From Solen grandis (Eukaryota; Mollusca; Bivalvia; Adapedonta; Solenidae), in the NCBI GenBank assembly GCA_021229015.1, contig CM037795.1, positions 19,840,378-19,904,377 on the forward strand: DNA of 64,000 nt, read 5' to 3'. The translations under genes and the position numbers were made by a program. Below are positions 880 through 34,800 of this stretch, in pieces (within the stretch, counting starts at the first letter, position 1; each line of letters opens with the position of its first letter). The notes beneath the pieces are model-generated. The model was not told the origin of the DNA, did no database searches, and saw only the letters and a list, made by a program, of their open reading frames with translations.

Positions 880-3660
880 GGGGTACCAAAAACTGCACGC
901 GCCCCAAAAAAGTCAGGGGTTTTTTTTTTTTGGGGGTTTGGCCCCCGGGATCTCTACTCATGCCTTTTATAAAAACTTCGGGAAAAATTTTCCAAAAAAA
1001 CCCGCATGTCTTGGGGGAAAATTTTTTTGGGTTGCACCCCTAAAAAAACCACCCCCTTTTAGTAAAAAAGATGTCCCTTTCCCACTAGAAAAGCGTGGTT
1101 TTTTTTTTGGGGTGATCCTAAAAAAATTTATTTTAAAAGGGCCCAAAAGAGGGGAGGGGAAAACATCTTTGTAGTAAAAGGGGGGCAAATATTTGGAAAC
1201 CCGGGGGTTTTTTTCGAAAAAAAAAAAAAGGTCCCCAGTCGAAAATTTAGGGGGCCCACAAAAAATTTTTGGGCCCTTTTTTATTTTAAAAAAAAAAAGT
1301 TTTTTTGGTACCGTTGTTGCTTTTAATAAAAAAACATGTTCCTTTTAAAAATCTAACTAGGATGGGCTTAAGTTTTTATAAGGGGATGCATACCAAACAT
1401 TCGAATGACGCAATTTTTTTCAAGTTTTAGTCATTTTTTTTTTTCTTAGTTAAAAAAGGGGGAAAACCCTTTTTAAAAATTTAAAAGTAATTTAAAAGGG
1501 GGGTTGAAAAATTTTTTAAAATTTTCCTTTCGAAAAAATTTTGGGGGGTTGGGCCCCAAAAAGGGGCCTTTTTTTTTTCTTTTTAAAAATTTTGGGGGCC
1601 ATACCACACTTTTTAAAAGGGCCCCCTCAATTTTTTTGGGGGCCATACCCCCGTTTTACAGCCCCAACCCCCTGATTTTCTTTTTTTTCCAAAAAGCAAG
1701 GAATGCAAAAAGACAAGGGGGGTTTGATCCTTGTAAACCCTTTAAGTTCGGGGGGTCTCCCCACCCCGGAGTAGGGGAATGGTAATTTTAAAAAGGAAAA
1801 ATGAAAAAGGGGGAAATTTTTGGGAGACTCCCCTTTTTTTAAGATTTAAATATTGATAAAACAATTAAAATTGGTCGTGATTGCTTTTGGGGCCCCCTCT
1901 TTGTTCCCCTTTGGGGGGTTGTCGGGGAAAAATTTTTTGAATCTGGGGGGACTTTTCGTGTGTAGGGCCCCCATGTTTCAATCAGGGAAAAAAAAAAGTA
2001 TAGGGATGGGGGACTGTTTTATGGGAAAACCCGGTTGCCTACTTTTTTGGTTGGGGGGAAACCCCCAAACAGAAAAAAACGTTATTTTTCATCCAAAAAA
2101 AAAATGATTTGTTCGCCCTTTCCCCGAGTTTGGGTTGAAAATTTTCTTTGGGCCCCCCCCGAAAATTTGGGGGGAAAAGGGCCTATAACCTATTTTTTCC
2201 CCTTTCAAAATTTTTTTTTGGGGTTGGGATGTATTTTTCTTCCCAAAAGTTCCTTGGGAAAATTTTTTTCCCACCCGGGGAAGGGGGAAGGGGGTCACAA
2301 AAGGGGGGAAAAAAAAGTAGAAGTCAAAAAAGAGGGGATTTAAAGGGGAGGGTTTTTAAAATTGTACCCGGGGTTTTTCCCCCTTTCCCAAAATTTCCCC
2401 CGGTTTTTTCAGGGTTTTTTAACCCGGCTTTTCCCAAAAGGGGGGCAGGCATTATGGGGGTTTTTGGGGATTTGAGGGGTCTAGACACTTCTAAATTTAA
2501 AAAAGGGCCCCTTTTTAGGCCCCCTTAAAAATGTGTAGGGAAAAGGGTAACTAATACAATTGTATATGATTTTTTTTTTTGTTTTTTTAAAAAAAAATGG
2601 TAAACCCCAACAAGGGAAATTAAAAAGTGGGGGCATCCCCGAAAATGGAAAAAATAACCCCAAATTTTTTTTTTAAAAATTTTGTTCAAATGTAATTTTT
2701 TTTGCTTCTTAGTGGTGGGTTTTCCCCCTCTGAAAATGCTTTTTGATGGGGGGCCCTTTAGGACACACGTTTTATTTGTTAGCTTCCCCCTTTCGTTTCT
2801 TGGGTTTTTCGGTTTGGGGTTTTTCCCCAAAAACGAGACAGCCCCTTGTAACTCAAAATCATTTTTCCTCTGTGGCACGTCTAACTACGTCCCTTTTTTT
2901 TTTTTCCCCCGTCCGCCTGGCTTTTTTTGTAGGTACAGTTTTATTAAAATTTCCCTTTTTTGGACAAGCGGATGCAAAGGGGGGATTTTTTCCCTACACC
3001 CCGTGGGCCCCGGGGGGTTTTTTGGGGAATTAGAAAAAAATTTCCCCCGGGTTTATGAAACGGTAGAAAAACCCCTGCTGTTTGGGGTTTTTGAAGCTTT
3101 TTCGTAAAAGCCAAAAAAAATGCCCCTTTTTCCCGACGCGGTAGATGTCATTTTTTCTTTCTGTTTCTTCTGATCAGCTTGTAAATTTTATAGGGTTTTT
3201 TATTTGGGGGTTTCACCCAGAATTTTAAATGTATTTAAAGGGCATTCTGAAGGGGGCATCTGAATCAGTTTTTGGGGAAAAAGGGGGGCGGGTCAAAACC
3301 CCCACTTTTTGGCCCGAGATGGGGGGGCGGAGCTTAGATGTATAAAAAAGGGGTTTGTCATTTTCTTTTAACCCCAAAAGATGTCGAGTTGGGGGAAAAA
3401 AGCAGGGGATAAAAAAGCCACCTGAAAAAAAAGGCCCCGAGTGATATACGGGAATATTTTTCCATCGCCACGGTCCAAAAGAACTTCAAGAAAGTTTAAA
3501 ACGAAGGGCCCCGTGTACGATGTTATTTTTTAAAATTTAAAAAAAAACCCTTTGTTTTTTAAAATAAATTTTCAAGGGGGGGGGGAAAAACGTTATACAG
3601 AGAACACGGGCCCCAAGGGCAACGATCAAATTGTATCCCAAAAATTTAAAAACCCGACCA
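880..3660 (-). repeat. Corrupted left arm of a long inverted repeat
   Basis: This segment aligns, as reverse complement and in the same order, to about 16.3-18.83 kb. Anchors are: 948-960 with 18,757-18,769; the GGTACC-rich stretch 1195-1320 with 18,514-18,612; 1386-1413 with 18,414-18,441 (28 identical bases); a stem-loop relic at 1551-1568 with 18,279-18,294; a promoter stretch around 2078-2110 with 17,880-17,911; and the start of the RING gene around 3496-3525 with about 16,457-16,485. Between anchors the text is degraded into base runs, so arm length and identity cannot be measured. I could not follow the repeat convincingly beyond about 3.66 kb. Confidence 0.75.
1551..1568 (-). terminator. 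Left-arm relic of a histone-type stem-loop
   Basis: The text reads GGGCCCCAAAAAGGGGCC, lying just downstream (plus direction) of the relic TCCTTTCGAAAAAATTTTGG. Both have the order and spacing expected for the reverse complement of the stem-loop and second hairpin at 18,279-18,320. The individual bases are unreliable. Confidence 0.5.
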
Positions 3661-6600
3661 GAAATTTTGGGATCCCCCAAATTCCCTTGGGGGTTAAAAC
3701 CCAAAAATTTCAGGAGAAAAACCCGTTAAAAAAAAATAAAAAAAAGGATCCCCCAAAACAACCACAATTTGAGTTTCCCTTTTAGGGGCAAACCCCCTTT
3801 AAAAAGGGGACATGTCTTTAAAACCCTAAAAGGGGGGTGGAAGAAAAAAAAGAACGTTTGGATCGCACTGACTTGAAAACCCTTTCCAAATTTTAAACGA
3901 AGTATGGTAAAGTTTTGACAATTTTCCCGGGGCAGTATGTTTTGGCACGATAAATTTTTGGGGGGGGGGGGGAAAAGTAAACTAAAAAAAAGGGGGCGAT
4001 ACAGTGGAAAACCCCAGGGAAAATTTTATGGGGGCAATCTGAAAAATTTTTTCAAACCCCCCGAAACCCCCAAAAAATTGTTAGTTTGTGTGGCATTAGT
4101 AAAAACCCCCTTTTTGGTAAGAAGAAACAAAAGTTTTAAGCCCCCCTTTTATCCAAATATGTGATAAAAAAGTGGCCAAAAATTGAGAAAATGCGGGGGT
4201 TTTTTCAATCCCCACCTCTGACAGAAAAAAAAAAGTGATTCACATTTATCATCTTTAAAAACATTATAAAATTCCCCCAAAAACGGGCAGGGGGTTTTCC
4301 CCGGGGTCCCCCCCATTTTTGTGAAAAATGAAAAATAGGGTTTTTAAAAAAAAAAAGCTTTTTTGGGGCAAAAATTTGGCCCCTTTTTCGCCCCCGACAC
4401 TAAAGCCCAAAAGAAGGATTCTTTCCATGTGGCCCCTGGGGGAAACATTTCTAGTCAAAAATTTTTTTGATCGGGGACAAAGCGAAAACCGGGGAAAAAC
4501 TAAAAAAAAAAACCGGGAAAAAGGGGGTATGGAATTGAAGACCTGTGGTAAATTTTGGGTTTTGGGGGGACAAAGAAGGGAAAAATTTTTTCCTGGCAGT
4601 AAAAAAAAGAAAAAAATTTAAAGAAAGTTGTGGATGCAGAAATCAGGGTTTTACCCCAGTAAAAAGAACCCGGGGGGAACATGGGAAATTTTCCCCAAAA
4701 TTTTCCTTTTTATCTTCTTTGACTTTGAGTGCCGATTTGTTTGGGTGAACAATTTCCCAAATTTTTTTTTTTGCTCAGGTGCTTGGGAGACTTTTTTGGG
4801 GAATCCCTGGAAACCCGTGTCAGAAAGGGGAAAAATGTGGGTGAGCCAAGAAAAAAAATATTTTTTGGGGAAAAAAACCTTTGTCAAAATTTTTTGCATG
4901 GGGGTTTAAAAAACCCCCCACAAAGGAAAACCCCATGGTTTTCTCAAAATCAAAAAAGGGTTTCGATGCCCCCGTTTTTTGAGGGATTTTCTGAAAAATT
5001 TAAACAGTAAAAACCCAAAATTAAAAAAAAATGGAAGAAAAAAATTTTAATGGGGAAAACCCCCTTAAAAAGAGATTAAAAGCCCCCACTGATTTTTTTC
5101 AACAGGGCCTTTTTTCCCCATTTCCCCCACACGTTTGGTTTGGGCTGAGTGGCAAAAAAAGGGTTTTCCCAAAAATTTAACCCAAAAGGGGGAAAAAACC
5201 CCAAAATTTTGGAGATTTTTTCCCCCCCTACATTTTTACAGACCCCAAAAGAAAAAATGACAAGAGGAACGTTTCTAAAAGGTACAATGCAAAAAATGGG
5301 AAAAAAGGCTGTGTTTTTTTTTCCCCGTTTTGAAAGCAAAAGATTTAAAAACAGATTTGGAATCTTGAAAAAGGGGTTTTTTGGGGGGAGTTTAGGAAAA
5401 AAAAATTTTGGGCCCCGTGCCAAAAAAGATCCGTTCCTGGAAAACGACCACTCTACCCCAAAATGTCAACAAACCCCTTTGGGGTTTAAAAAATTTAAGG
5501 GCCCCCCAAAAACCCCTTTGGGTGTAATCTTTTTATGAGGGGAAAACCAAAAAAAATCGTTTCTCTTTTAAAAGGGGGTTGTTGGATTTAAAAAAATGTT
5601 TTATTTAGAAAAAAACACTTTTGCCCTGCATTTTAAAAGGAGGTGAAACAAATTGGGCCCTTTTACGTTTGGGGGGATTCCACAAAAGAACGAACCCCGT
5701 TTACGAATTTTTTGGGGGGGGGGGCCCACGGGGGGGCCCAAAAAAATTTTTAACCCAAAGGGGAAAACCCGTGTTAAAAAGGTTCCCCACTTCAAAAGGG
5801 GCCGTTATACAATCCCAAAAAACCTTTCGGTTAAAAGGGGCTTTTTTAAAAAAAGGTTACAACCGTTTTAAAGTGGGGGAAAGTGATTTTTATCAGAAAT
5901 GCAAAAAATTAAACCCCCGAAATTTCAGAGATTGGGAACCTTTTTTTTTCCCCTTTTTCCGGGGAACCCATTATCCCCGGGGGGTTTTTTTTTTTGGGGG
6001 GCAAAAACCCAAGGGGGTTCAATTGTACCATGGGGTGGATACAACCCAAGGAAAAAAAAAAAGTTGCTGACATTTGTTTTCCCGTAAACCATTTGTGGGA
6101 AAAAGAAAAAACATCCCCCTGGGACATCCCGCATCATAAATAAAAAAGATGTTTTATATAAAGAACTTTTGGGAAAGTAAAAGGGGGGCTCACAAATTTG
6201 GGTTTTTGCCCCCCCAAAACCGTGGTACCAGCCCCACCTATTCCCCCGTAACAAAAAAATGATTTTTTCACGGGGTCTTTTTGTGTGAGGAAGAGTGTAA
6301 AAAAAACCCCAAACCAAATCGTAAAAACCCCCGTTTTAGGGACCTGGACCCCTGGGGAAAAAAACTAAAACCCTTGGGGTTTTGGTTTTAATTGGAAAAC
6401 GTCTTCCACTTGGCAGGGGAAAACCCCCTGGAGTAAAGATGTGTATAAACAGTATATTTAAAAAATACTTGAAATTAAAAAAAGAAACCAAATGGTTACC
6501 CTAATTGGGGAAAAAAAGAAGTGATGAAGCCCGTTTTTAAAAAGAATTACTTTTGATAGGGGGTATTGGTTTAAAAAAAAGGAAAAAAAAAAAAAGGGGA

Positions 6601-15204: not shown

Positions 15205-15600
15205 GAAAAAAGTGGGGCGAGAGTTTCTGAAATGATTAAAAAAGGGCGTAAAACAAGTGTGGAAAAAGGGACTAACTACAAAAATGGTCTACACCGTGAA
15301 AAATGATGCTTATCAGATTGGGCAAAAATAAAGGCAGGGTACGAACAAGAAAAACACCCCTTTGGAGCTTTTTAGTGCGAATGGGAGGACGAATTAAAAA
15401 AGATTGGGAAAAAGGAAACTTGTTCAATATTTTGGGGCTTCACCAATTTAGTCCCTTTAACCCCGGATTTTCTAAAAATAACTACCCAACAAACCGGCTT
15501 AAAAAATTACTTTGAAACCCCCAATTTTATAACCCCGGGGAAATTGGGGGGTTGGTTTTTAACGATAAATCGACTTTCTCTTTACGTTGGAAAAAACCCT

Positions 15601-15931
15601 CCTCGTGACATTCAACGTTTCTTGGAAAACATGGACCCATACTGGAACTATGAGACTTTAAGGTCAAAAAGTTTGTGGGGGCTTTTTTTTTTTTGCTTTG
15701 CTTTTCTTGTTCGAGGGGGGGATTTTAAAACGGGTGCTTAGAGCTAAATTCCGGACAGAGGATCAACCTCACTTCAATTTGAACGATTCCAATGTGGGAT
15801 GTTGGTTTTACCAGAACTTATTCAGACTGTACAAACGTGCAAGAAGGCAAGTGTGTATCAGCACCAACAAACATGCACAGCTAAACATCCACCAAAGTTT
15901 GGAGATGGTCGTGCGTGTTTTGAATTACTGA
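15601..15931 (+). CDS. C-terminal end of an unidentified protein
   Basis: This is the first readable coding sequence after the damaged block. The last 62 or so codons (about 15,746-15,928) are clean. They end in HQSLEMVVRVLNY, include RLYKRARRQVCISTNKHAQL, and are followed by TGA at 15,929-15,931. Further upstream the likely frame continues as RDIQRFLENMDPYWNYETL (about 15,604-15,660), displaced by a shift in the degraded stretch 15,670-15,730. I do not recognise the family. The gene is plus strand and convergent with the RING-like gene. Unlike its neighbours it has an ordinary AATAAA signal downstream. The start lies inside the damaged block and cannot be placed. Confidence 0.55.
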
Positions 15932-16059
15932 CGAATAGTTTAGACCCATTCTACTTTCATTAAAGTGTTATGTACTTGTTGTTCATAGTGTTTGCATTGT
16001 TCATATTGTTTGTTCATATTGTTTGTTCATATTTTTTTGTTGCAATGTTCATAGAGTTC

Positions 16060-16065
16060 AATAAA
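16060..16065 (+). terminator. Poly(A) signal AATAAA
   Basis: AATAAA lies 129 bases after the stop of the plus-strand gene ending at 15,931. The intervening 3' UTR contains repeated TTGTTCATATTGTTTG-like words (15,980-16,035). It contrasts with the four neighbouring genes, which have stem-loop ends. Confidence 0.6.
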
Positions 16066-16083: not shown

Positions 16084-16161
16084 TTTCTTGTTGTTTATCT
16101 TACACATTAACAATTGTGATATATTCCCTCTCGAATATAGTTGATGGCCCTGAAAAGGGCC
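16084..16161 (-). terminator. Histone-type 3' end of the RING-like gene
   Basis: On the minus strand GGCCCTTTTCAGGGCC (16,161-16,146) forms a 6-bp stem with a TTTC loop, 35 bases after the RING stop codon. It is preceded by an A-rich flank. A second dyad follows (ATATTC, GAGAGG, GAATAT), then ACAATTGT at 16,117-16,110. The flank after the stem is ATCAAC rather than ACCCA. In histone mRNAs such a stem-loop binds SLBP, and a purine-rich element downstream pairs with U7 snRNA. That machinery acting here is inference. Confidence 0.8.
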
Positions 16162-16196
16162 GTTTTTGGTTTTTTGTGATCCTGAATTACTCGGAG

Positions 16197-16457
16197 TCAC
16201 CCTACTAACTCTGAATAATCAGGGTCAAACCATATCCCATGATAGGCTGAGCGCACTGTAGGCCCATGTTTAGCGAAAACACAGGCAGGCCAGGCATACA
16301 CTTGATAGGGTGCCCTACAAAACGGGCACTTCTGAAGCCGTGCGAAGCATCTGACGCATACAATGTCCTGACATTGACACTGGTTTATGTGATATATATC
16401 CCCCTCCTCTCCTCTAACCACACCACACTTTTCGAACCAGAGTTTTTGTTCGGACAT
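16197..16457 (-). CDS. Small RING-like zinc-finger protein
   Basis: An 86-residue protein. Cysteines 27, 29, 34, 37, 44 and 47 lie in the pattern C-x-C-x4-C-x2-C-x6-C-x2-C, ending in CPFCRAPY, which resembles the second half of a RING domain. Only Cys11 and His23 are available for the first zinc site, so the finger is atypical. RING proteins are usually E3 ubiquitin ligases; that role is inference here. The ATG at 16,457 follows a TATATAAG box (minus strand, 16,497-16,490) by 33 bases. The gene shares a 243-bp divergent intergenic region with the gene at 16,701 and ends in a histone-type stem-loop. A corrupted copy of its start and Cys-rich region lies at about 3.5-3.66 kb. Confidence 0.75.
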   Translation of the reverse strand: MSEQKLWFEKCGVVRGEEGDIYHINQCQCQDIVCVRCFARLQKCPFCRAPYQVYAWPACVFAKHGPTVRSAYHGIWFDPDYSELVG

Positions 16458-16489
16458 TGTGATTTCATCCTTCTTTTTTTAAAAAAACA

Positions 16490-16700
16490 CTTATATAGTT
16501 ATGAAAAAAGTAGGTCAGTAGGTCAATCCACCCCAATGTCAAGGCCGAAGATAATGCTATCCAACTCAGGTCAAGGTTAAACTTGAATCATTGAATGGAA
16601 ATTACGTTCTCTGATTGGTGGTGCAAACAGAAGAAAGTAGGTCAATCCGTCTCAAGCTATAAAAGCACACTGCATCGTATCATAATCCCACTACCCAACC
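16490..16700. promoter_or_regulatory. Divergent promoter, copy 1
   Basis: Plus-strand elements are a CCAAT box in inverted form (ATTGG, 16,614-16,618) and TATAAAAG (16,658-16,665), 35 bases before the ATG at 16,701. The minus strand has TATATAAG at 16,497-16,490 for the RING-like gene. AGGTCA half-sites occur at 16,512, 16,520 (a direct repeat with 2-base spacing), 16,568 and 16,639. The whole stretch is repeated at 17,810-18,000. CCAAT plus TATA with a very short 5' UTR is also typical of histone gene promoters. Nuclear-receptor binding to the half-sites is only a possibility. Confidence 0.75.
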
Positions 16701-17189
16701 ATGGAAAGCTACGTAACTTCTGATCTCGTTAACAACGCCATACAGGCTGCTGATTTGTATGAGCTGACGACAGCTGCTAACCAGGCATCAGTGTCGTACA
16801 CTCCGACTCCGGTTGTACCAACCCAGCTACCAACCAAACGTATCAACCTCAGCCTCCCACCACACCAGCAGCACCAGTACAACCAACAACAACCAATGCA
16901 ACAACCAATACAACACCAACCGGCAGCGCAGCCCAGTAAATAATGTTGGCAATCTATTCTGAGGGAACTCAAAGAGGTGAACAACAACCTCATCAAATTG
17001 CAACAGAGAATGGTAGAAGTGGAATGCCGTATCAAATTGAAAACAGACAAGCTGGTGGTGCCTATCACTTTCATTCCAGAAAATGTGGAATCATCCAACA
17101 AACGTACGCTTGATGGTGGATCCCATTCTAAGAATGGACTTGGAGCCCATTGTAAAGACATACAAAATAGCAAAAAGAGTAAGAAGTAG
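16701..17189 (+). CDS. Unidentified protein with one in-frame stop
   Basis: The frame starts at ATG 16,701, 35 bases after the TATA box. It runs 80 codons to a TAA at 16,941-16,943, then stays open in the same frame for 81 more codons to TAG at 17,187-17,189. The first part is rich in Pro and Gln (residues 45-80, with HQQHQYNQQQPMQQPIQHQP). The second part begins with a likely coiled coil (RELKEVNNNLIKLQQRMVEV) and ends in a Lys/Ser-rich basic tail (NSKKSKK). The true last stop lies 18 bases before the stem-loop, the spacing seen in its neighbours, which suggests the second half is real coding sequence. The inner TAA may be readthrough, a nonsense mutation or a sequence error. I recognise no family. 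Confidence 0.65.
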
Positions 17190-17207
17190 AGAAAAAACAA
17201 AAACAAC

Positions 17208-17261
17208 GGCCCTTTTCAGGGCCAACCCAGATGTCTCGAAAGGACATTTTTTTACAATTGT
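17208..17261 (+). terminator. Histone-type 3' end, copy 2
   Basis: GGCCCTTTTCAGGGCC (17,208-17,223) has a 6-bp stem, TTTC loop, 5' flank AACAAC and 3' flank AACCCA. It is followed by the second dyad ATGTC, TCGAAAG, GACAT (17,231-17,247), whose loop is purine-rich, and ACAATTGT at 17,254-17,261. It matches the metazoan histone mRNA consensus closely. Confidence 0.9.
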
Positions 17262-17290
17262 CAAACCAAGTAAAAAAAGTATCAAACGAA

Positions 17291-17587
17291 ATGAATTCAT
17301 GCCATTCGTTTTCAGACTGTGCTATGGATAAGTCACATATAACTAACGACTGCATATCTGACATGGACAAAATAGAAGCCCTACACCAACGTGCGCTTAA
17401 AATACAAGCCCGATACCAACGTACGCTTAAAATAACAACAACACTCAGGAGTATCGTAGCCAAATTGAGTGAATGTTACTTTCATGAACTATACTACGAT
17501 GATATCTTAAATATCATTGAAGCACATTTCATCACCATAGAACATGTTGAATATCTGCTGAAGAAACTCATAGACAGTCATGAGTAA
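17291..17587 (+). CDS. Unidentified small protein, possible second cistron
   Basis: The open frame runs from ATG 17,231 (118 codons) to TGA 17,585-17,587. That first ATG lies inside the 3' processing module of the preceding gene, so I prefer Met at 17,291 (98 residues, starting MNSCHSFSDC). The protein is mostly charged and helical. It contains a short internal repeat (ALKIQARYQR, then TLKITTTLR) and ends with HVEYLLKKLIDSHE. No TATA or CCAAT box lies in the 100 bases upstream, unlike the two neighbouring genes. It would therefore need a transcript that escaped stem-loop cleavage, or an undetected promoter. It ends 25 bases before its own stem-loop. No family is recognised. Confidence 0.55.
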   Translation: MNSCHSFSDCAMDKSHITNDCISDMDKIEALHQRALKIQARYQRTLKITTTLRSIVAKLSECYFHELYYDDILNIIEAHFITIEHVEYLLKKLIDSHE

Positions 17588-17612
17588 CCACTACTCTGTG
17601 AGAAAAAAAAAC

Positions 17613-17666
17613 GGCCCTTATCAGGGCCAACCCAAATGTCTCGAAAAAGAATATACCTCAATTGTC
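17613..17666 (+). terminator. Histone-type 3' end, copy 3 (TATC loop)
   Basis: GGCCCTTATCAGGGCC (17,613-17,628) keeps the 6-bp stem, with loop TATC instead of TTTC. It is flanked by AAAAAC upstream and AACCCA downstream. The purine-rich stretch TCGAAAAAGA follows at 17,641-17,650, and CAATTGTC at 17,659-17,666. The second dyad seen in copies 2 and 4 is disrupted here. Confidence 0.85.
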
Positions 17667-17810
17667 ACCATTTTTTCTTTCAATTTCCCTTCAAAATTAT
17701 TTTTTTTCATTAAATTAAAAAAAATAAAAATGTTACAAAAAAAGTCATCACAACTACAAATTCGGCTTGAATTTTTTTTAAATTTTACAGCAATTCTGAT
17801 ATGTCAATAC
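17667..17810. other. AT-rich spacer
   Basis: An AT-rich stretch with T and A runs between the third stem-loop and the second promoter copy. I see no gene or motif in it. Confidence 0.5.
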
Positions 17811-18012
17811 AAAAGTAGGTCAATCCACCTCAGGTCAAGGCCAAAGGCAATGCTATCCAACTCAGGTCAAGGTTAAACTTCATGTTATTGTCATTGAATG
17901 AAAATAACGTTCTCTGATTGGTGTACGCTAACAGTAGAAAGTAGGTCAATCCACCTCAAGGCTATAAAAGCGCACCGCATCAAGCATTCGGTCATATTCT
18001 CGCTGCACAACC
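17811..18012 (+). promoter_or_regulatory. Promoter copy 2
   Basis: This is a near-duplicate of 16,500-16,700. Shared elements in the same order are GTAGGTCAATCCACC, AATGCTATCCAACTCAGGTC, AACGTTCTCTGATTGG (CCAAT box at 17,917-17,921), AAAGTAGGTCAATCC and TATAAAAG at 17,963-17,970. AGGTCA half-sites lie at 17,817, 17,832, 17,864 and 17,943. The ATG of the next gene follows TATA by 42 bases. The two copies differ by scattered substitutions and small indels, so the duplication is not recent. Confidence 0.8.
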
Positions 18013-18264
18013 ATGGATGAAATTCAGCAACTGATTGAATTTGTCAACGAATTGATGGGGTTGATCGAACGACAACGCAATGAGTGGAGACAACAGCAAG
18101 ACCATATTGCAGAATACCATGCGCTTTTGTCAGACATGGTACATCAGATGATGTTGAACAACAGATGACAACAGCAGATGTTACAAGATGAAAACGATGT
18201 CATCGTAATCAGTGACGATGTCACCGAAATCAAACACGATGTGGACAATGTCACCGAAATCTAA
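18013..18264 (+). CDS. Small coiled-coil protein with one in-frame stop
   Basis: ATG 18,013 (context ACAACCATGG, also present at the gene at 16,701) opens 51 codons to TGA at 18,166-18,168. The frame then stays open for 31 more codons to TAA 18,262-18,264, just 14 bases before the stem-loop. The first part is a Gln/Glu-rich, probably coiled-coil segment (IQQLIEFVNELMGLIERQRN). The part after the stop is strongly acidic and contains DVIVISDD, which fits the SUMO-interacting motif pattern (hydrophobic core followed by acidic residues). The biased composition after the stop suggests it was selected as protein. Readthrough, mutation or sequence error could explain the TGA. No family is recognised. 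Confidence 0.6.
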
Positions 18265-18278
18265 AGAAGAAACAAAAC

Positions 18279-18329
18279 GGCCCTTTTCAGGGCCAACCCA
18301 AATGTCTCGAAAGGACATTTTACAATTGT
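18279..18329 (+). terminator. Histone-type 3' end, copy 4
   Basis: GGCCCTTTTCAGGGCC (18,279-18,294) is flanked by ACAAAAC and AACCCA. A near-perfect dyad AAATGTC, TCGAAAG, GACATTT (18,300-18,320) and ACAATTGT (18,322-18,329) follow. A corrupted inverted copy is at 1500-1568. Confidence 0.9.
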
Positions 18330-18513
18330 CAATCCCCCTTTAACTTACATAACGTTAAGATGTGGTCCTCCTTTAACTAAGGAGAAATAAAACATGACGT
18401 CAACATGACAATATTGCGTCATTCGAATGTTTGGTATGCATACTCTATCCGATCTTAAGTCATCCTAGTTAGATCTAACAGGTAGGACATGTTTTTTATT
18501 ACATGCAACATCC

Positions 18514-18618
18514 GGTACCATAAATCTTTTTTTCGTATATACTCATAAATTTCTGTCGGTACCATAAATTTTCGACTCGGTACCATAAATATTTTTTTTC
18601 GATAAAACCCAGGGTACC
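18514..18618. repeat. Iterated GGTACCATAA motif
   Basis: GGTACCATA occurs at 18,514, 18,558, 18,579 and 18,613, three of them followed by AAT. The cluster is conserved in order, though damaged, in the left arm. It could be a binding-site array near the outer end of the element; no function can be assigned. Confidence 0.6.
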
Positions 18619-18756
18619 ATAGTGCCACCCTTCACTACTCATCTTCTTACTAGACATGCGTGGATTTTTGGGTGTGCATCCTAAAACAATCGATTTGAAC
18701 GGCCGAAACGAGGTAGGGGTATCGGTGTAAATTTCCCGAAGCTTTTATGTAAGGCC

Positions 18757-18862
18757 TGAGTAGAGATCCAGCGGAGGCCAATACGAAAAAAAATAACCGG
18801 AGCGGATCTCAGTAGAGATTATTGTCGCGCAATAATTGACGATCTCGGAGTTGAGATCATCT
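18757..18862. repeat. Cluster of dyads near the element's outer end
   Basis: GAGATCCAGCGG (18,763) pairs imperfectly with CCGGAGCGGATCTC; ATTATTG, TCGCG, CAATAAT forms a perfect hairpin; and GATCTC, GGAGTT, GAGATC forms another. The GATCTC word recurs four times. Such dyad clusters can mark replication origins or element termini; that is inference. Confidence 0.5.
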
Positions 18863-28828: not shown

Positions 28829-31800
28829 GGTAGAGAAATATCGACCTGTTAAACTGTCAGATATTGTGGGCAATGAGCAGACGATCTCCAGGTTGGAAGT
28901 GTTCGCAAGAGAAGGAAACGTACCAAATGTTATTATTGCAGTAAGTATTCACAGATGACTGTTATAATAGCATTATACACAATACATCTTTTTGTAAATC
29001 CTTATCAAACAATACATGGAAAAGTCAGGGTGGGGGCACAATTATCTTGTATAAAAAAGAAAGTAACAATGTTCTCTTATTGGTATTATGGATTCAGGAG
29101 GAAACTGGCTATGATCTTATAAATTCAGTGTTCACTACAAAATCTTAAATGCATTTATGAACATAACCAGTTGCAAGATTTTCAGTGTTTTGAAACTTCC
29201 CTTACTTCCTGTATCTAAACCGTATTTATCAACAGGGACCTCCAGGTACTGGCAAAACCACCAGCATTTTGTGTTTGGCTCGTGCTATGCTTGGAGCTGC
29301 TTATAAAGATGGGGTACTGGAACTTAATGCTTCAAATGACAGGTTGGTTTGACAAACTTAACTTATCCAAGTCTGTTTTATTCTTCGCCACTGAATAGTG
29401 AATTTGTAAATTTGACACCTTTTAAAATTTGAAATTGTCATCTTAATAGATGAAAAGAATGAAAATATACCGGTAAAACACACAAAAAAAGAATCAGTTA
29501 CAGGCTTTGGGTTATGAATTATGAGCAATTAAATAATTCAATATTTATTGGTAGTAGCTTCAAATGCTGCTAAATGTTACATGTAGTGGGGTTTAAAATC
29601 TTTACAGTTGATTGGGGGAGGGGGGCATTAATTGTTATGCTACCCAAAAGGTGAGCCAGATCAATTGGGGGAAAAGTATTCAAAGTGACATATACAATAA
29701 TCATAAAAACTGCAGAAAGTCTAATATTGTGAACGTAATGTACTACAGATGTCTAGAGTGGGGAAATTGGAATTCTGTTTCAGGGGTATAGATGTAGTTC
29801 GGAACAAAATCAAGATGTTTGCTCAACAGAAAGTCACAGTACCACCAGGAAGACATAAAATAATTATTCTGGATGAGGCAGATAGGTAACTCTCTCTCTC
29901 TCTCTCTCTCTCTTTTCTTCAGGCCTCAGTATTTTAAAAGTTTATTGATTGAAGAAATTTTGATATTATATTACTCTGATATATCCTCTTGCATGCACTT
30001 GATAATGTTATTTTTTCTTTTGACATAAATAATTTTTATATTTAAAAATTGTATGCATTTACATGTGTGTATCTAAATATCCACATTTATAGATGCAAGT
30101 GTTTATAAAAGTACTTGCATGTCTGACTGGTTCCCGGTATTTCAGCATGACAGATGGTGCCCAACAGGCTCTAAGAAGAACTATGGAGATTTACTCAAAG
30201 ACAACCAGATTTGCGCTGGCCTGCAATGCTTCAGATAAAATCATAGGTACCTTTAACTTTGTTTCATCCTTTAGTGTATAATATACATTGAAAACAAGTA
30301 GAGATGTTTTTGCTATTTTTGTGTGCGTGTGTTAAATGAGATTTTCTGGGGTAATTTTCTATATCGTCGGAGGTCCTAACTGTGCCCCTGTCCTAACTCC
30401 GCCACCTTCCTTTTTTATATTGTAGTCTCGCTAGATTTTGTTACACGCGTATGCGACTGTGAGATTTTTTTTACTATGTTTCTGTAAATAAACTCAGATG
30501 ATTTTTGTACGAAATTTTGATTCAAACTGATAAATATTACAAATTTTATCTCGCACCACTCTTTTTATGTGTTTTTTCTTAATACAAAATGATTTCCTCG
30601 CAGAATGGTCCTTTTTCACTCAATTTTTTAAAATAAAAGTATCTCGGAAATTCCATCTGCTGTGTTTACATATTTATAAATGGAAGTCATATGGTACACT
30701 TCGCAACTGCTATGACGTCACCTAGGGGGCGGAGTTAGGACCACACAAAATGATGGCATAATATTTGACTCATAATGCATTAATGTTATTTTCAAGTCAA
30801 TAATTGTGTATAAAAGAATTTTTTGGGGGGGTATCCATGTGAATTTGATAGAATTAATTGGTACGTCAACAGTTTTTATTCTATGTATTTATGTTGCATT
30901 TCCTAATTAAATCTTAGAGGGGCGCAGTTTGGGCACTCGAGGATATACATGTACAATTTTTTCTTCCCTTTCTTGATATATCTTCATATAAATGAAAGAC
31001 CAGTCATTAACAAACTCTTTTTACATTAAATTTTGAAGGTCTGTATAAATCAGTGTTCATTATACCCCTGCTGCACTTTGTGATTTAAATTTTAACTTTA
31101 GTATCAAAAGTCCAAATAATAAAATTCATTTGAAAATTGATGCTTAAATTTACATGGAGCCATATTTTGGATCAATGTGATCAAGGGAGGTATTGTGGAA
31201 CATCGGTCATTGTTAACAAAATGGGATGGGCGATTAGCATTGATTGCAACTTTGGAATTTTTTTTAACAGACAGAATGATGTTTCTGTGACAGGTTTAGT
31301 TGACACACTTTTCACACTAAATATAAAATAATTTGTTGTTCATAAGCAATAGTATATAATAATTTATTAGATTGAGGAAAAAAAATAAAAAAATTTTTTT
31401 CACAGAACCTATTCAGTCCCGATGTGCAGTATTGAGGTATGCCAAGCTAACAGACGCACAGGTACTGAAGCGCCTTCTGGAAGTGTGTGAGGCAGAGAAA
31501 GTCAGCTACACAGATGATGGGATTGAGGCAATAGTCTTCACTGCTCAGGGCGACATGAGACAGGTGGGTTTAGGGTCAATGGCTTGTATCTTAATGATGC
31601 CAGTCTTGTCAAAATGTTTATTCAGTATTCAGAATTTTAGAGTTTCCAATTTCGAGAGTTTTATTCTATTTGAAGTTTTCAAGGAGAAAAATGGGACTTT
31701 AACCCTTTCCCTCATAGAGGAAACCATGAAAAGACCTATGCGAACAACATAAAACCAGATCAGCCTGCGAGTAACTCGCAGGCTGATCAGGTTTTATGCT

Positions 31801-34800
31801 GTTCACTGCTCCTCAGTGGTCTGGAAATGAGGATTTTGTAATTAAATTTGGTAAAGTTTAACTGTGGTTTTCTGCTGATCAGGCTTTATATGGTACCTAC
31901 TGAGTGCGTCAAAATGAGTCTATATGAGGGAAAGGGTTAAAGTTCCACTGTGCTTCTCTTATGTGATTGCCTTTTTATTCAGGTAAGCCTGTAACTCAAC
32001 CACTAACCAATTCAACCAGTGTTGGGAATCAGACAGAACATTTACTATATCTCATTAAAATGTGTATATCTTTTGCTAGAAATAATATACTTAAAATTTG
32101 TGTTAGCATCCTTCCAATCCGACTCAGCCTTTAATGAATTATACCATGAGAAACAAATTACTAGAAACTCAGAAACCTACATTTTGAGTGTGATTTCAAT
32201 ATTGATCGTCTCTGTCGTAGGCATTACTGATCAACTTTCCATTATAATTTAAAATTGGGCCAATACTAATTTCAACCATTCAAAATTGTCAGCTGCTAAT
32301 AAGTGCTTCATTTAAGATGGTGGTTAATAAAACACTTGGCTGCCACACAAATTTTTGAACAAAAAATGAGGACTGCTTGTAGGTGGTTTACACTGCCATA
32401 AGTCACTGATATTGTCAGATTTTAGCAGACTACACTGTTCAGCTATATTGTCAATATGTTTATTAGTTTTAATATGTTCGTATATAAATGGATGTTGATA
32501 AATCTGTGATGTGAAACTCTTTGGTGAGACATGTTTTGATTATATATTGGTTTACAGGCACTCAACAATCTGCAGTCAACTGTACAAGGTTTTGAACATG
32601 TTAACAGTGAAAATGTATTTAAGGTAAGAATGGATTGAGCTGTAAAGCATTAAGAACAAGATTTTATATGAATTTGAGATCAGGCTCTAATTACACCGAC
32701 AATACTTAGTACTACGTAATACTTCAGTAAGATAGAAACACGTTCCACTATTTTTGTGGGGCTGAGACTGGTATATCTCTTCTGCTTGGTGCTCAGCATA
32801 GAAGGGTTGTTCCTGGACTGGTTAGCCTGGTCACAAGATACTGGGACTCGTATCATGCCGCTTGTCTACTGCATATCTCAGTGAGGAAACTCTATATATC
32901 TGTCTCCTGTAGACACAGTTATCAGATGATGTAAATACTGTTGGTGGGTGTAGCCATCAAACTGGAAATCTATCAGAAAATAAGGGTGTGTGTGATATTG
33001 TCAGGTTTGTGATGAGCCGCACCCCCTCCTGGTGAAGGACATGATACAGCACTGTGTGGTGGGCAACATTGACGAGGCCTACAAGGTCATGGCCTATCTT
33101 TGGAAACTGGGCTACTCTCCAGAGGATATCATTGGCATTGTCTTCCGAGTGACCAAAACTCACGACATGCCAGAATACCTGAAGTTGGAGTTTATTAAGG
33201 TAGGGGGAGATAATTTGTATCATAATTTCAAACTCTTTGAACTCTCTTTGTCACACTGTAGACAGGCAGAAGTTAACTGTCAGATTTACACAAACTGAAA
33301 GATATTCTGACTAGAAGCTTACCAGCTGCTTCTTACAGGGTAATATAGAATTGGACACTGCTAATTCTTATTTCTCATGTTTTTTAAAAGAAGAGTCCTC
33401 AAAATTAAAAATGAACGTGACATTACTGCTGTCTTGTATTATTTTTCCACAAAATGAATATTCTATATGTAAAACAAGCTTTTGTAACTTTGTTTTACAA
33501 AGATTTCTTTCCCTTGCTTGGACAAAACAAAGTTATAAAAAAAAAAAATGGTATAGCTCCCTTACTTGGCGCTTAGCATATAAAGCTAGTTTTAGAACTG
33601 GCTGGCCTGTTAATAGGATAAAGTGACCGGTGTGTGGTGTCATGCCACATGTCTATGGCGTGATACTGCATGCAGTGTGGCTGCACTATATCAGTCTCAA
33701 GGAGACATTGTCTCCAAATAGTGGGATGCTAAATCCAACAAACCAAACATTTCTTGATTATTATTAATTAGGATAAAGTTATAACTCGAGAAGCTGGAGT
33801 TGATGTCTGAAAATAGAATTCTGAACTTAAAAACCTCCAGTACTCCCATTAATCCATTGTCAAGGATGAATCTTAATCAGCATATTGTTTTAATGAAACA
33901 TTGTAAAAGTCTTTTGTTGGCTTTTAAGAATTTACAGAATTATTGTTAGAAAATCTTGTCCTGTTAAAAGATGATATAGATGGTAAATGTTAACTCCTTT
34001 CTTCTCTTTATGATGTTGGTGCTATACTGGGATCATGCATGTCATGTTGCATTCTGTCCACCTCAACGTAACTTTGATCCTCATATAGATTGTCAGGCTT
34101 CAGACCCAGATCAGACAACTCCTGGTAGAGCACTGTGTTCAGGATCTTCTCTGCTTCTTTATATACTGGTGTAGCTCGAGCTACACTGCCTGCACAGAAA
34201 AGAAATAATCCTCTGTGTAATATACAGTTTTAAGTTCAGTAAATTGATATTCATGAAGTCATAAAAATGTACATGATTATTCATGAGGTCTCAAGTGCAA
34301 GTTATGGTATTCCAGTGGAACTGGAACAGGTTTTCAGTGTCGAAAACCTAGCTGGAGATTATGGTCACTGTTATAGAAATAGAAAAAAGATTTCAAAGTT
34401 TGAAGTAAGACAAAATGGTTTTGTACCTTAGATAGTTTTAAGGTGTTGTGGATATACATGTAGTATATATATATATATATATATTGAGATGTATATTGTA
34501 GTCAAACCTGCCTTAAGTGGGCAGTCAAGGCAATACGAAAAATGGCCACCTAACCCAGATGACCTATTAATTGAGACATAATCGGTTAAGTACAGGTGGC
34601 ATTGATACAAGTTGAAGTGGGATTATTGTGTGTACCCTCAGACTGTGTAGTCTGGCCATGTGTTGAATGTAGTGTATAATGTTACAGGAGATTGGTTACA
34701 CCCACATGAGGATAGCGGAAGGGTTGCAGTCCCTGCTCCAGATGTCAGGCCTTCTGGCTCGACTGTGTAAAAAGTCCGCCCAGCCTAACATCCTGGCATC

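Follow-up and report, generated by a model that had tools for sequence, protein, structure and literature searches.

A stem-loop and a histone downstream element (HDE) are named as the hallmarks of replication-dependent histones in PMC5011920, and in the bivalve Lucina pectinata every histone mRNA is reported to bear a stem-loop palindrome (PMC6210712). PMC7807067 includes GGCCCTTTTCAGGGCC in its list of histone stem-loops for which human transcripts were screened. Genes of the H2A.X type, with dual 3′ ends, combine the stem-loop and HDE with a possible downstream poly(A) signal. Among mobile DNA elements, Polintons measure 15–20 kb and encode pPolB, an RVE integrase, an FtsK-like ATPase and a cysteine protease (PMC4028283), and a table row for Maverick in a bivalve genome gives 1.69 and 1.93, apparently per cent (PMC8905726). 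The stretch analysed here, called the window, comprises 64,000 nt of Solen grandis (contig CM037795.1 of assembly GCA_021229015.1, positions 19,840,378–19,904,377). It contains a Maverick/Polinton-type element in which six small genes, A–D at the right end and E and F at the left end, are followed by histone-type 3′-end signals. The element resembles replication-dependent histone genes in the six-base stem, the four-base loop, the A/C-rich 5′ flank, the ACCCA-type 3′ flank (in three genes), the purine element, the CAATTGT motif of the host, the small open reading frames (ORFs) and the TATA box that A, B and D have close to their starts. It differs from them in that the signal is placed on non-histone genes and in an extra predicted hairpin in A, B and D. 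It differs from H2A.X in the first of these respects, H2A.X being a histone.

Genes A–D occupy 16.1–18.3 kb of the window on both strands, and each stop codon is followed after 14–35 nt by a histone-type stem-loop, located by pattern search. Bit scores refer to the histone stem-loop covariance model RF00032, and copy counts to the 20 copies found through protein C, the window copy included.

16110–16116, minus strand: CAATTGT motif 29 nt past the stem of gene A
16126–16134, minus strand: HDE-like purine element of gene A, TCGAGAGGG
16146–16161, minus strand: stem-loop of gene A, GGCCCTTTTCAGGGCC, 35.7 bits, exact in 14/20 copies
16197–16457, minus strand: gene A, 86 amino acids, weakly RING-like (E 0.0017 with the closest-matching RING model of Pfam, under the cut-off)
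16490–16497, minus strand: TATA-like box of gene A
16658–16665, plus strand: TATAAAAG box of gene B, with an inverted CCAAT at 16614
16701–17189, plus strand: gene B, 163 codons including the stop, with an in-frame stop at codon 81 in the window copy
17208–17223, plus strand: stem-loop of gene B, GGCCCTTTTCAGGGCC, 31.0 bits, exact in 18/20 copies
17236–17261, plus strand: TCGAAAGG purine element (17236–17243) and CAATTGT (17255–17261) of gene B
17231–17587, plus strand: gene C, 118 amino acids from the first ATG, with an alternative ATG at 17293
17613–17628, plus strand: stem-loop of gene C, GGCCCTTATCAGGGCC, with a TATC loop, 29.6 bits, exact in 20/20 copies
17641–17665, plus strand: TCGAAAAA purine element (17641–17648) and CAATTGT (17659–17665) of gene C
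17963–17970, plus strand: TATAAAAG box of gene D, with an inverted CCAAT at 17917
18013–18264, plus strand: gene D, 84 codons including the stop, with an in-frame stop at codon 52 in the window copy
18279–18294, plus strand: stem-loop of gene D, GGCCCTTTTCAGGGCC, within the right terminal repeat, 31.0 bits, exact in 10/20 copies
18307–18329, plus strand: TCGAAAGG purine element (18307–18314) and CAATTGT (18323–18329) of gene D

The stop-to-stem distances are 35, 18, 25 and 14 nt for A, B, C and D, respectively, and those of B and D are measured from the distal stop because each has one in-frame stop in the window copy. An ACCCA-type 3′ flank is present in three of the stem-loops, and the 5′ flanks are A/C-rich. 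A preliminary description of the window had reported four non-histone genes with such ends; the coordinates and distances are confirmed and the four sites are real, but B and D are each interrupted by an in-frame stop, and the set grows by two stem-loops, E and F. Gene B is open to the distal stop in 14 of the 20 copies, the window copy not being one of them, and in nine of the 20 the terminal stop is the only one in gene D. Natural read-through of the B and D stops was rejected because open copies exist. No histone family appears among the Pfam matches of A, both pieces of B, C and the first piece of D, in agreement with the non-histone character first attributed to the products. Sequence matches in the PDB are weak (best for gene A, an IAP RING at E 0.021), as are PHROGs matches of the gene pieces (best E 0.002, an unnamed family, for the first piece of B). 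Single-sequence fold models are poor, with predicted local distance difference test (pLDDT) values of 38 for A and 56 for C, the latter predicted with low confidence to be helical. The distal part of gene D (18169–18261) encodes DVIVISDD, which we take to resemble a SUMO-interaction motif.

The covariance search with RF00032 that had been proposed for the window finds all four stem-loops at 29.6–35.7 bits, with E-values of 5e-8 to 9e-6 in a 2.8-kb scan, and no other match in the window at E up to 1. Only the A stem-loop (1/4) exceeds the gathering score of 34; the end of the host histone H1 gene, at 31.1 bits, is likewise under it. A looser hairpin pattern gives four matches in the window and none in 100 simulated first-order Markov sequences of 64 kb, and the four gene stem-loops make up four of the six perfect 6-4-6 hairpins in the window with at least five G/C in the stem. 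The idea that the stem-loops are a product of chance or of assembly draws on the state of window 1–15.7 kb, which is smeared into homopolymers (neighbour-equal fraction 0.554 versus 0.306). The sequence that holds the four stem-loops is itself clean, exact matches to them occur in 13 (A), 17 (B), 19 (C) and 9 (D) of the 19 other copies, and the simulations yield none. The other copies already refute this explanation, whose probability is negligible.

The likeness to host histone genes extends beyond the hairpin. In a unit of the host tandem histone array (L043), the H2B, H2A, H1, H3 and H4 genes each have a stem-loop 26–36 nt past the stop, and all five combine it with a GAAA-type element and a CAATTGT-like motif; the stop-to-stem range in the element genes is 13–49 nt. 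The purine core starts at +12/13 past the stem in the five histone genes versus +13/14 in the six element genes, and the CAATTGT-like motif starts at +28 to +32 versus +28 to +31. When 13 3′ ends from histones, element genes and two other gene families are aligned, A(A/G)TTGT is found in 13/13 and a GAAA or GAGA core in 12/13. The three-part module pattern is absent from 100 simulated 64-kb sequences and from the window past 18.9 kb, although it is insensitive, with three matches in the window and four in L043. Within the stem alignment, 72/72 cells are paired, and one of the six pairs is changed on both sides: the gene F stem, GGTCCT/AGGACC, has T-A in place of C-G with pairing kept, and host H1 has the same change. 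The covariation score is reached by 3/500 shuffles; a control slid by +3 obtains a higher score, yet pairs in 46% of its cells. Agreement of the whole module with host histone ends is the strongest evidence, and at the level of sequence it is well supported that the element carries the full histone 3′-end signal.

The genes belong to a mobile element. Self-comparison of the window reveals an inverted repeat, 18263–18798 versus 1582–918, at about 70% identity, which places genes A–D at the right end of an element about 17.9 kb long between repeat ends.

918–1582, minus strand: left terminal inverted repeat (TIR), in smeared sequence, outer end approximate
18263–18798, plus strand: right TIR, outer end approximate
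15376–15963, plus strand: C-terminal remains of an adenovirus-type cysteine protease gene, frame broken in the window copy
16060–16065, plus strand: AATAAA about 100 nt past the protease stop, without a stem-loop there

Genes in window 1–15.7 kb are unreadable because of the smearing, which presumably also accounts for the lack of any family in six-frame Pfam scans of window 1–15.9 kb. Stretches of other copies are mostly clean. In the 1.32-Gb assembly of 811 contigs, at least 150 scored matches were obtained for protein C among 572 candidates (38/150 with an in-frame stop) and at least 150 for protein A among 593 candidates (149/150 without one). A clean copy stretch, L044, encodes an rve integrase (PF00665, 34.8 bits versus a cut-off of 32.6) and, in a neighbouring frame, a chromodomain (27.2 bits versus 25.1); a Pfam scan of its other strand is without match. 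Two further stretches of L044 were judged by eye: YFDTDS at 2300–2704, presumably a type-B polymerase motif, which has no Pfam match, and a Walker-A-like stretch at 3477–3809, possibly from an FtsK-like packaging ATPase. No stem-loop was found by pattern search in the 9.9-kb core piece of L044 that includes the integrase and the polymerase motif.

The protease remains in the window have the same C-terminal residues as an open 178-residue protein in L004, a stretch of the same copy as L044. This protein matches Peptidase_C5 (PF00770) at E 0.0016 and 18.6 bits, below the cut-off of 21.3, and its relative P0002 is above that cut-off. Among 41 candidates, 39 relatives are found at E up to 0.001, and an alignment of the L004 protein with 14 of them (15 proteins) has invariant H, D, Q and C columns, which we take to be the catalytic residues. 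One protease relative, P0027, is filed under a Candidatus Thiodiazotropha taylori metagenome-assembled genome and could stem from host DNA that was binned with a symbiont. Judged from sequence, the carrier is a Maverick/Polinton-type element because of the TIRs, the length of about 17.9 kb, the rve integrase, the adenovirus-type protease and the copy number. These features are also those of adintovirus-like elements, as are the apparent type-B polymerase motif and the Walker-A ATPase fragment. The chromodomain is a further feature here, and what sets the Solen element apart is a set of six small genes whose 3′ ends are histone-type. At its right outer end, the element has a hairpin that is not statistically significant (z −1.65).

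Two further stem-loops lie in smeared sequence at the left end of the window and were recognised from clean copies.

1552–1567, minus strand: smeared stem-loop ending gene E, with three mismatches; clean equivalent at L072 2905–2920 (minus strand)
2507–2522, plus strand: smeared stem-loop ending gene F, which is GGTCCTTTTCAGGACC in clean copies

Six left-end stretches were examined for the terminal repeat, and three (L071, L072 and L074) have a clean left arm. Gene E, on the minus strand, encodes 111–112 amino acids in these three; its stem-loop is inside the terminal repeat, 13 nt past the stop in L072 and 49 nt past it in L071 and L074. Gene F, on the plus strand, encodes 80 amino acids in L070 and 71 in L072, with the stop 19 nt before GGTCCTTTTCAGGACC in both. 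L071 has the same stem-loop, as does L063, which is the seventh of the left-end stretches, and L074 has it with one base changed; in L069 and L073, neither the E nor the F stem-loop was found. In L072, RF00032 scores are 31.0 bits for E and 30.7 bits for F, and the gene F region of the window aligns locally to L072 with a score of 168 versus a maximum of 69 in 100 shuffles.

The positions of the six hairpins bear on whether they are instead a DNA signal or another RNA signal, for transposition, packaging or transcription termination, with a superficial likeness to histone ends. Two of the six are at the inner edge of the terminal repeats, as such a role would allow. The other four are outside the repeats, the orientation follows the gene in 6/6, and the purine element and CAATTGT, common with host histones at the same spacing, would be needless for a bare hairpin. 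On these grounds a DNA-only role was rejected, and we regard the explanation as a whole as very improbable.

The upstream regions of some genes also resemble one another. TATA boxes lie about 40–50 nt ahead of the start codon in A, B and D, and an inverted CCAAT precedes B and D. Because B and D share the promoter (CCAAT and TATAAAAG) and the 3′ module and have unrelated coding sequences, promoter and 3′ end seem to travel as one cassette. A second hairpin is predicted over the purine element at 16103–16145 (A), 17224–17261 (B) and 18295–18329 (D), where it pairs 7/7 despite arms that differ between A and B/D; in C, which has one arm of each kind, it is broken and pairs 3/7.

Several observations weigh against use of a host histone pathway by the element. 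Pooled per-site variation is 0.0225 in the stem-loops, 0.039 in promoters and intergenic sequence and 0.047 in the stop-to-stem spacers, and equal conservation is reached by 72/2000 random site sets and 170/2000 random block sets. For A (0.053) and D (0.035), the stem-loops show no greater conservation than the sequence around them. Constraint across the young copies is thus weak and gives no strong proof of use. A single pair changed on both sides is reached by 156/500 shuffles. The best match in a host U7 search (RF00066) has E 0.1, while 12 of 14 prokaryote control genomes reach the threshold, and this U7 candidate was rejected as chance. Gene F has an open frame in L070 and L072 and a broken one in L071 and L074, no promoter could be recognised for gene C, and the predicted second hairpin in A, B and D could hide the purine element from U7. 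AATAAA occurs at 17723 and 18386, 95 and 92 nt past the stem-loops of C and D.

The weak constraint would suit passive hitch-hiking, in which a single host histone 3′ end was acquired by an ancestor and then duplicated along with its promoter, leaving stem-loops that are now useless; the modules of B, C, D and E are near copies of one another, and the stem-loops of A and D decay like their surroundings. It also fits inserted copies that decay after insertion. Since every inserted copy should decay in this way, weak constraint at present does not count against use in the past. Moreover, the six modules are spread over both strands, each of them downstream of the stop of a separate ORF; a stem pair in gene F is changed on both sides; and the flanks of A, C and F have diverged while stem and CAATTGT are kept. 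Hitch-hiking is unlikely for these reasons. The AATAAA hexamers beyond C and D are the basis of another alternative, in which the genes have dual ends, histone-type in S phase and poly(A) otherwise, as in human H2A.X, whose dual processing is the subject of PMC7807067. No AATAAA was found on the gene strand close downstream of the A or B stem-loops, and dual ends are a possibility that we hold with considerable doubt, although it is the most plausible of the alternatives.

Histone-type ends on non-histone genes are not confined to the element. A genome search with RF00032, in which 75 of 260318 first-look candidates were scored, gives at least 52 matches at E up to 0.001; one of 14 control genomes gives a match, and none is over the cut-off. 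The 52 matches comprise 23 in the C3 histone array, six in the C1 cluster and 23 isolated sites; one unit and parts of others were examined in the C3 array, and all of the isolated sites. Fourteen isolated matches are the Maverick element (L059 weakly, over 259 bases), six are GDSL-like, two are Cys-rich and one (L056) is assigned to no family, and no histone gene lies beside any of the 23 within the surrounding 3.0–3.1 kb. The GDSL/SGNH-like small gene family (L046, L049, L050, L051, L060 and L062) has CAATTGT or CAGTTGT downstream of the stem-loop; L051 1604–2035 (minus strand), the example tested, matches Pfam Lipase_GDSL_2 at E 0.0014, below cut-off. The flanks of two copies contain no match to a protein of the Maverick element by tblastn. 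A Cys-rich non-histone ORF of 114 amino acids, at 1132–1521 in both L003 and L006, ends in GGCCCTTTTAAGGGCC, and its stem-loop in L003 has the top RF00032 score among the genome matches listed, 40.1 bits. Non-histone mRNAs with a stem-loop end may form a wider class in this genome.

Among the titles listed from the open-licence literature, none concerns 3′ ends of the histone type in Mavericks or in other DNA viruses. A coronavirus coding region matches RF00032 at 14.7 bits, far weaker than the element's stem-loops (PMC7786107). Searches of viral contigs found no relatives of proteins A and C or of the protease fragment, no exact module pattern and no confirmed protease-like contig, and a search of the protein database found no relative of protein A. 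The general stem-loop pattern occurs in two phage-like contigs (24.8 bits with RF00032 in one, no match in the other), which was taken as chance. A viral or bivalve link had been suspected at first. In a separate part of the window, at 31742–31804, a 63-nt palindrome, 92% self-complementary, lies beneath a weak mir-1253 match (35.6 bits, gathering score 103).

With the module agreement and the placement of the six ends taken together, the probable reading is that host SLBP/U7 processing serves six small accessory genes of the element, of which two lie at its left end and four at its right end. Host SLBP would bind the hairpins of element pre-mRNAs, and host U7 snRNP would bind the purine element, the candidate pairing sequences being the GAAAGG element and CAATTGTC. 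The U7 snRNP/CPSF73 complex would then cut about 5 nt past the stem. The resulting mRNAs would stay without poly(A), and their translation would fall mainly in S phase, the time at which the element is able to replicate its DNA. The preliminary description had spoken of an element borrowing SLBP/U7 processing, which would give non-polyadenylated, S-phase-coupled mRNAs: the full 3′-end signal is present on a mobile element at the level of sequence, whereas the use of SLBP and U7, the lack of poly(A) and the coupling to S phase are predictions drawn from it. The identification of the carrier as a Maverick, the extension to six genes and the agreement with the histone genes of the host are new here. 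We somewhat favour the broader view that the six genes form a non-histone regulon on the host histone mRNA pathway, possibly within a wider class, whose products, one of them RING-like, are made from poly(A)-less mRNAs during host replication.

If true, this would break the rule that only histone mRNAs end in the stem-loop in animals. Poly(A)-selected RNA sequencing would tend to miss such transcripts. If the transcripts of the element and of the two further gene families are processed in this manner, SLBP and U7 would have natural clients other than histone mRNAs, which would also serve as natural tests of the requirements of that machinery, and a DNA element would have a means of timing its genes to S phase.

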